Assembly: GCA_018667995.1 (NCBI GenBank)
Contig: JABIQT010000319.1
Location: 1 to 12,706, forward strand
Direction: 5' to 3'
Length of the DNA: 12,706 bases
Origin: Candidatus Latescibacterota bacterium
GTDB lineage: Bacteria > JAAXHH01 > JABIQT01
Below the pieces are notes generated by a model. It was not told the origin of the DNA and did no database searches. It saw only the letters and a list, made by a program, of their open reading frames with translations. Made by a program: the position numbers and the translations under genes. This document shows, one piece after another, positions 1,770 through 3,231 of this stretch. Numbering within the stretch: position 1 is the first letter of the stretch; every line of letters begins with the position of its first letter.

Positions 1770-1798
1770 TTGACATTCTATATATGAATAGGTAATTT
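1770..1798 (+). promoter_or_regulatory. Candidate rightward promoter (TTGACA -35)
   Basis: A perfect TTGACA box lies at 1770-1775. After a 17-base spacer comes TAATTT (1793-1798), a weak match to TATAAT. TAATTTCA after the TTG at about 20 bases also loosely resembles the Bacteroidetes-type TAnnTTTG box. Transcription would start near 1805 and enter the hairpin series that ends at the 1940-1970 terminator. The -35 is convincing, the -10 is not. Confidence 0.35.
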
Positions 1799-1804: not shown

Positions 1805-1970
1805 CTATTGTACAAAAACCCAGTTTGTTCAACAACAGATGAAGGGTGGGTTTAACAGAACGTGATTCCGATAAGAAGTAGGACTATCACACTGCCGGCG
1901 GAGTTCAATACGGATGACATCCTTAGTATTCGGATGAGGAAAGTGCACCTGCATAAGGTGCACTTTTTTT
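1805..1970 (+). ncRNA. Candidate small RNA or structured 5' leader
   Basis: Four consecutive inverted repeats can be drawn: AAACCCA/TGGGTTT (1816-1822 with 1847-1853); GTGAT-TCC with GGA-CT-ATCAC (1862-1890, CT bulged); AATACGGAT with ATCC-TTA-GTATT (1907-1930, TTA bulged); and the 10-base-pair terminator stem (1940-1966) with its T-run. A TTGACA box sits about 35 bases upstream of the proposed 5' end. No plus-strand gene precedes the terminator within the region, so it must end either a short independent RNA or an attenuated leader of the zinc-ribbon gene. I recognise no known RNA family. Hairpins this short arise by chance, so only the terminator is solid. Confidence 0.35.
1940..1970 (+). 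terminator. Strong intrinsic (rho-independent) terminator
   Basis: The arms AAAGTGCACC (1940-1949) and GGTGCACTTT (1957-1966) are perfectly complementary around a TGCATAA loop, and the T-run continues to 1970. The orientation is rightward. It lies 56 bases before the zinc-ribbon start with no plus-strand gene upstream in the intergenic region, so it either ends a small RNA or acts as an attenuator. Confidence 0.85.
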
Positions 1971-2026
1971 ATGGCAGCGACATCTGTCGCGGGAGCGTTT
2001 AGTAGACGTTCCGATTAGGAGGTGGC

Positions 2027-2752
2027 ATGCAGGAAAGTTTACAGACTCTGTTTCAGTTGCAGGTAATTGATCATGAAGTGCACGAACTGGAGCGTCTTAA
2101 GACCAGCATACCCGGGAAGATCAACGAACTAACCGGCGCGTTGTCCGATGCCAATGACATGTTGAAAGAGAGAGAGTCTCGGCTGGAGGAGCTGGAAAGG
2201 GATAACCGACAGCACGAGCGAGACACAGAAACAAATAATGATCAGATAGCCAAATACCAGGAACAGCTCCATTCCGTTAAAACCAACAAGGAGTATGACG
2301 CGCTCCAGCACGAGATTCAGGCCCAGAAGTTGCAGGTCAAGGCACATGAAGACGGTTCACTGGAATTAATGGCGGAATTAGAATCTCTCACAGAAGAGCT
2401 GGACCAATTGCGCATTGATGTCGCCAGCCAGGAAGAGCGCATCAACGAAGAGAGCAAGGAACTCAAGGACCAGCTTGCCGGTGTGGACGAAGACGTACTG
2501 GTTAAGAAAGATGAGCGACTGAGAGTGCAGATGCGGGTCGAAAAACGGGTCTTAACAGCCTACGATCGCATACGAAAAGGCAATAAAGGCAGCAAAGGCG
2601 GTGCTGTTGTGCCCTTGAAGAAGGGCGCCTGTGGAGGTTGTTTTCATACTATGCCACTGCAACAGGTCGCAGAGATCAAACAAATGAAGCGCCTTGTCAT
2701 CTGTGAAATCTGCGGAAGGATCCTCGTGGTGGATCCGAATGCTGAGCTGTAA
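2027..2752 (+). CDS. COG1579-type coiled-coil protein with C4 zinc ribbon
   Basis: This 241-residue protein has the usual size and layout of the C4-type zinc-ribbon family (COG1579, PF02591; CT398/HP0958-like). Residues about 8-180 form a long charged heptad-rich coiled-coil hairpin, containing the conserved VKTNKEYDALQHEI block at 84-97. A basic, glycine-rich linker (185-200) leads to the zinc ribbon, with C202-x2-C205 and C226-x2-C229. The start is well supported by AGGAGG at 2017-2022, four bases before the ATG. Members are presumed cytosolic and nucleic-acid- or protein-binding; HP0958 of Helicobacter is linked to flagellar gene expression, but no general role is settled. Position directly upstream of rnpB is an arrangement I recall from several diderm lineages. 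There is no terminator before rnpB, so the two may share a transcript. Confidence 0.92.
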   Translation: MQESLQTLFQLQVIDHEVHELERLKTSIPGKINELTGALSDANDMLKERESRLEELERDNRQHERDTETNNDQIAKYQEQLHSVKTNKEYDALQHEIQAQKLQVKAHEDGSLELMAELESLTEELDQLRIDVASQEERINEESKELKDQLAGVDEDVLVKKDERLRVQMRVEKRVLTAYDRIRKGNKGSKGGAVVPLKKGACGGCFHTMPLQQVAEIKQMKRLVICEICGRILVVDPNAEL

Positions 2753-2832: not shown

Positions 2833-3231
2833 GGTGCGGTTCAAGCAGGACAGGTGATCGCATTCATTCGTATGGATGAATGAGGAAAGTCCGAGCACCT
2901 CAGGGCAGGATGCCTGCTAACGGCAGGGAGCAGCGATGCTACGGAAAGTGTCACAGAAAATACACGGCCGATCCCCGCTCGCGGGGAGGCAAAGGTGAAA
3001 TGGCGAGGTAAGAGCTCACCGCGGTTCAGGTAACTGAGCTGGCAGGATAAACCCCATCCGGTGCAAGACCAAATAGGAGAGGAGAGGCTGCCCGCCTCAT
3101 TTTCCACGTTTGTGGAAAACACTCTCGGGTAAGGTCGCTCGAGGCGCCTGGTGACAGGCGTCCCAGATAGATGATCATCGCCTTCATCCGAAGGTACAGA
3201 ACTCGGCTTATGGACTGCTTGAGACCGCACC
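2833..3231 (+). ncRNA. rnpB: RNase P RNA, type A
   Basis: This is the catalytic RNA that removes 5' leaders from precursor tRNAs together with the RnpA protein. Universally conserved segments are present in order: GAGGAAAGTCCGAGC (2882-2896), AGGTGAAATGG followed by GGTAAGAGCTCACCGCG, GGATAAACCCC, GCAAGACCAAATAGG, AGATAGATGATCATCG (3165-3180) and ACAGAACTCGGCTTAT (3196-3211). The ends are set by an unusually long P1: 2833-2848 pairs with 3215-3231 with about one bulge. P16 (3077-3081/3122-3126), P17 (3084-3088/3094-3098) and the P6 pseudoknot (GGGCA 2903-2907 with TGCCC 3089-3093) mark it as type A. An additional perfect helix at 3100-3119 is not in the E. coli RNA as I recall it. I see no promoter or terminator of its own, and recJ begins 34 bases later. 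Confidence 0.97.

Follow-up and report, generated by a model that had tools for sequence, protein, structure and literature searches.

Why should an intrinsic terminator lie just upstream of a gene? This question is raised by the window (the whole 12,706-nt stretch of DNA analysed here, from a Candidatus Latescibacterota bacterium), where such a terminator precedes a gene of the COG1579 family. The original prediction offered two ideas: either the gene depends on read-through, or the element is an independent small RNA. We give a probability of roughly 0.68 to the reading that positions 1770–1970 drive the COG1579 gene as its promoter followed by an attenuated 5′ leader, an undescribed element of the rimP-leader kind. 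The locus would then comprise the following parts:

1770–1798, plus strand: predicted promoter, TTGACA (1770–1775), 17-nt spacer, TAATTT (1793–1798), recognised by comparison with relatives; predicted start near 1805
1805–1939, plus strand: leader body of about 135 nt without a stable fold of its own (fold z 0.06; missed by the covariance model of a sister genus)
1842–1849, plus strand: AAGGGTGG, a member of the motif AAGG[AG]TGG about 100 nt 5′ of the hairpin, found in 3/5 lineages of the order
1940–1970, plus strand: intrinsic terminator and sequence-conserved COG1579 leader hairpin, arms AAAGTGCACCT/AGGTGCACTTT and T7, supported by conservation counts
1971–2026, plus strand: spacer with ribosome-binding site AGGAGG near 2016–2021 and no visible promoter
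2027–2752, plus strand: gene for a COG1579/CT398/DUF164 zinc-ribbon protein of 241 aa, with CT398_CC and Zn_ribbon_9 above Pfam cut-offs
2842–3225, 3′ of COG1579: RNase P RNA (class A), rnpB, by Rfam match

In a repeat scan the terminator appeared as a perfect inverted repeat (1940–1950 and 1956–1966) with a 5-nt loop, closed by T7 at 1964–1970; the perfect stem and the T-run had been predicted correctly, and only the stem length changes, from 10 to 11 bp. As was also predicted, the terminator follows no plus-strand gene: the sole upstream gene encodes a DUF5916 protein and runs divergently on the minus strand from a start near 1644. The 171-nt stretch including the terminator was more stable than its shuffles (z −2.52). 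Between the end of the T run at 1970 and the ATG at 2027 are 56 nt, in which, in agreement with the earlier reading, no promoter-like site was visible; judged by eye, a weak promoter may nevertheless lie inside this gap. Due to the fact that the gap between terminator and start codon leaves little or no room for a promoter, COG1579 would depend on read-through. By eye, a second small inverted repeat, GCGACA-TC-TGTCGC (1977–1990), was seen right 3′ of the terminator and was not seen in relatives.

The promoter of the window was identified through comparison with relatives from its order, where whole-genome searches gave 15 other genomes with COG1579 matches; the named copies come from MAGs that carry the labels Candidatus Latescibacterota, Gemmatimonadetes or Zixiibacteriota. 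In all 15 relatives the parts come in the same order, with a promoter, a leader of 120–160 nt, a terminator and COG1579. The upstream promoters read TTGACA (one TTGACT), 17 nt and TA[AT][CT]TT, and the terminators have TGCAC/GTGCA arms followed by 7–9 T and lie about 36–105 nt from the start codon (about 20–60 nt in many lineages outside the order). The sequence or gene upstream of the promoter varies between families of the order while promoter, leader, terminator and gene persist. The general arrangement of an attenuator leader, that is, a promoter before a terminator and a gene directly 3′ without a promoter of its own, was thereby found at the level of sequence.

The −10 element of the window, TAATTT, is weak by Escherichia coli standards, and the pattern TTGACA-N17-TAWYTT occurs in 23–41 copies per genome, compared with 0–4 for the reversed control (0–2 per strand); in the genomes of this order it has the appearance of a genuine class of promoters. 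In a sister genus represented by 12 genomes the −35 and −10 are almost invariant, and divergence, scaled to that at the fourfold-degenerate sites of COG1579, was 0 for the −35, 0.14 for the −10, 0.51 for the leader body and 0.23 for the terminator. In this genus the 17-nt promoter spacer also carries a near-palindrome, ATGCC-N3-GGCAT, kept among close relatives (L025–L035), which may be an operator or mere shared descent. With a predicted start near 1805, the RNA of the window would extend to 1970, about 165 nt, which matches the length originally estimated.

From this anatomy we infer the following course of events. RNA polymerase would initiate near 1805, and most transcription would end at the terminator after about 165 nt of RNA, while a fraction of polymerases would read through to give the COG1579 mRNA. 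Read-through would be regulated if something recognised or covered the hairpin, and candidate signals are a ribosome translating a leader ORF as far as the hairpin, antitermination of the Nus type, and a protein on the hairpin, possibly the zinc-ribbon protein itself.

Terminators normally keep shape rather than letters. At this locus the letters themselves are kept: RTGCACN{3,11}GTGCAYTTTTT has exactly one copy per genome in the 15 genomes of the order, always at the COG1579 leader locus, and one stem change is compensated between genera (AAGTGCAC/GTGCACTT vs AAATGCAC/GTGCATTT). The hairpin is also single-copy in the genome of the window and its exact form is absent from viral contigs, by which a viral or multicopy origin was rejected. 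In genomes of other phyla, reached via their COG1579 loci, the hairpin is rare and nearly always at the COG1579 locus. The strict pattern AGTGCACN{3,12}GTGCACTTTTT matched 13 genomes in a set of 384 drawn from across Bacteria (the reversed control gave 0 matches), and the next gene was COG1579 in 12 of these 13. The lone exception, L157 (G233:C38:1495–1519), directly precedes a topA-like gene.

A slightly looser pattern was found in 29 of 82 genomes of one further phylum, 28 of the 29 before COG1579, counting L167, where the COG1579 profile match begins 369 nt downstream. A KSB1 MAG seems to belong to this phylum, since the leaders L115 and L188 are identical. In the phylum of Calditrichota-labelled genomes the hairpin was present in 3 of 40. 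Moreover, among loci gathered by protein similarity and not by pattern, the strict core was found in 20/59 terminators before COG1579 and in 1/89 other terminators of the same loci, counts that are not independent trials as the loci are mutually related, though they span several phylum-level groups. The hairpin core is retained between phyla while loop and flanks differ and the leader bodies are unrelated, and selection seems to act on the letters themselves and not on their pairing alone; thus something probably recognises or covers the hairpin, and read-through is likely to be regulated. The letters AGTGCAC..GTGCACT are not indispensable, judging from many Zixiibacteriota loci in which a terminator at the same place has other arms.

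This tolerance of other arms would also be expected if the terminator were an unregulated, leaky remnant of an ancestral tRNA operon (tRNA-Met, tRNA-Val, terminator, COG1579, rnpB), with read-through giving a low constant level and the letters persisting by slow change of paired bases, a reading which we hold to be unlikely but still credible. It draws on the gene order: tRNA-Met(CAT), tRNA-Val(CAC) or both stand about 70–130 nt 5′ of the terminator in the majority of Zixiibacteriota and Calditrichota loci, and rnpB follows COG1579 in many loci, with recJ next in the window. However, no tRNA precedes the terminator in the order of the window, at L158, L161, L168–L171 and others, where the arms are nonetheless the same, and many genomes of the KSB1-containing phylum likewise lack a tRNA there, and slow change fits poorly with a core that survives between phyla despite changed loop and flanks and is nearly missing from the other terminators of the same loci. 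Because tRNA presence varies while terminator and COG1579 stay together, the terminator accompanies COG1579 and not the upstream RNA. In one relative, L037 (G006), the COG1579 stop codon and a TTGAAC-N17-TATATT promoter for rnpB seem by eye to overlap.

We also considered the leader body, for which three further inverted repeats in series had been claimed. This claim did not hold: without its terminator the body of the window folds like its shuffles, those of three other lineages fold no better than theirs (z 1.39, 0.01 and 0.77), and beyond the terminator arms the repeat scan gave nothing but short palindromes that overlap one another. The upstream stems of the window were therefore rejected as structured RNA, their stability being no better than that of shuffles, and the compensatory changes that were to support them were not found. 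The sister genus has a different, two-helix fold, in which CGUGCCC/GGGCGCG encloses GGUCCGA/UCGGACC, with one covarying pair (UG, AU, UA), besides one pair of the terminator stem changed on both sides. Its covariation score exceeded all 500 shuffles, as related sequences can do even without structure, and covariation gives modest support to the two-helix structure; folded alone, the aligned body was not exceptional (z −0.92). The covariance model of this genus matched a second genus of the same family exactly at the COG1579 leader locus (E 5e-4), but missed the window, the other family and a further genus; in direct comparison of bodies, that of the window was not recognisable in relatives either. 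Thus the ends are common to the order, and the body is matched only within part of one family.

These results bear on the second idea of the original prediction, an independent trans-acting RNA of about 165 nt that merely adjoins COG1579. Its own promoter and strong terminator would suit such an RNA, as would the one genus in which the body diverges at half the fourfold-degenerate rate and has the two-helix fold with a covarying pair. Yet the body is unrecognisable between families, whereas the two ends and the adjacent gene are conserved; the element always adjoins COG1579, and its terminator is the most conserved part, even in phyla with unrelated bodies. Moreover, Hfq was found in none of the 15 genomes of the order, all incomplete MAGs, and an Hfq-dependent RNA was rejected on this ground. 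We regard the independent RNA as improbable, and of the two ideas the attenuated leader is the best reading, with promoter, terminator and gene kept in order in relatives and a hairpin that tracks COG1579 across phyla. That the hairpin is a chance, functionless structure is hardly tenable, for although terminators in the window were no commoner than in shuffles in a generic scan, the hairpin keeps its position in each of the 15 other full-locus genomes of the order, with a compensatory stem change between genera, and this conservation refutes it. The same generic scan listed neither the promoter nor the terminator of the window, which shows the limits of such scans.

If the COG1579 leader is attenuated, what might control its terminator? 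A switch between antiterminator and terminator was rejected: no antiterminator pairing was found in the order, and in six leaders the longest upstream complement to the 5′ arm of the terminator was 5–7 nt, not longer than in shuffles. Translation up to the hairpin, i.e. leader-peptide attenuation, is possible outside the order of the window. In 81 independent leaders across phyla, 22 have an ATG ORF of at least 12 codons that ends at the hairpin, where dinucleotide shuffles predict 9.1, and 71 have one that reaches it (47 expected), for example L158, L171, L181, L183, L188, L191 and L192. Codon-level comparison of a few pairs gave only a weak coding signal. Within the order, an ORF ended at the hairpin in 2/5 leaders, with 1.4 expected, and the window itself has no convincing leader ORF. 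A Shine–Dalgarno-led leader peptide was rejected as a general feature (16 vs 12.0 expected, not clearly enriched), and so was a small protein of the sister genus, MDMSTSPIVCMVRLQLPLRTRGPVKPD followed by a stop, whose variable sites are spread 9/12/9 over codon positions without coding bias and whose well-placed ATG has disappeared from 3 of the 12 genomes.

Leader motifs were counted in the same leaders in which they were first noticed, which makes their p-values optimistic: AAGG[AG]TGG, which may be a start-codon context, occurs in 3/5 lineages of the order, where shuffles predict 0.12, and in the 29 independent leaders of the KSB1-containing phylum, AGG[AG]TG[AG] occurs in 8 (0.87 expected) and G[CT]TCTTT, 76–112 nt 5′ of the hairpin, in 16 (0.78 expected). 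The latter, a putative boxA by its likeness to the consensus, lies upstream of the hairpin in L161, L172, L173, L175–L177, L181–L184, L186 and L188–L194, and suggests involvement of Nus factors in that phylum; the leader of the window has no boxA-like site.

The third candidate signal is the product of the gene, a protein that is 46–54% identical within the order. In Helicobacter, COG1579/CT398 proteins have been connected with protection of sigma-54 and with binding of flaA mRNA (PMC3372290, PMC5947703), and HP0958, a COG1579 protein, binds this mRNA via its zinc ribbon (PMC5947703). The conserved hairpin could accordingly be a putative binding site of the zinc-ribbon protein, which would control termination in its own leader, a speculative proposal that we consider rather unlikely.

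No known RNA family had been recognised in the element, and this held in Rfam at gathering as well as permissive thresholds: no curated model of a riboswitch or other cis-element matched at the gathering threshold, and the permissive search gave weak chance matches only (E 1–4). A 6S RNA was rejected, as RF00013 did not match the element; weak, below-cut-off 6S RNA matches that span the whole model in two genomes of the order, L132 (G013:C42:5479–5664) and L133 (G014:C64:4407–4592), are possibly divergent 6S RNAs. ARAGORN found no tRNA, by which a tRNA or tRNA remnant was rejected; a weak similarity of the body to tRNA-Val (p about 0.03, uncorrected over 12 comparisons) was absent in other lineages.

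Among known systems the rimP-leader (Naville and Gautheret 2010, PMC2965389) comes nearest, a short terminator with conserved letters before rimP-nusA-infB and no larger conserved element, read by its authors as a transcription attenuator. The COG1579 leader shares the short, conserved-letter terminator, its specificity to the 5′ side of one operon and the want of a larger element, and on paper would work alike. It is not a member, because its arms (AGTGCACC/GGTGCACT) and its gene differ from GGGc..gCCC before rimP-nusA-infB; moreover, the phyla differ, and tRNA genes frequently precede the COG1579 element. The suhB mRNA leader, controlled by boxA and Nus factors (PMC5725501), resembles the boxA-like leaders described above, but its termination is Rho-dependent, whereas the COG1579 leader has an intrinsic terminator. 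The rplJL leader of Bacillus subtilis is an autogenous ribosomal-protein attenuator (PMC4538822), to which the COG1579 leader would be similar in that a product capable of RNA binding may control the terminator in its own leader, cf. HP0958 and flaA mRNA (PMC5947703); unlike attenuators of the rplJL type, it showed no mutually exclusive antiterminator, and binding here is putative. In the literature searched, which left most subscription journals outside, no attenuator or leader RNA for COG1579/DUF164 was described. For DUF164/FlgZ gene neighbourhoods, a figure legend already names tRNA-Met and the gene for RNase P RNA as neighbours of DUF164 genes, and leader RNA, promoter and terminator do not figure in the portion of the description considered here (PMC3372290).

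Letters that persist in several phyla, and almost always in front of a single gene family, point to specific control of COG1579, and as a signature specific to this gene the terminator suggests an undescribed on/off switch. The hairpin signature may be used for annotating the COG1579 leader in little-studied phyla, and a defined cis element offers a handle on what the widespread COG1579/CT398 protein responds to or binds. If the protein did bind the hairpin of its own leader, this would reveal a widespread autoregulatory RNA element and an RNA ligand for the CT398 family.
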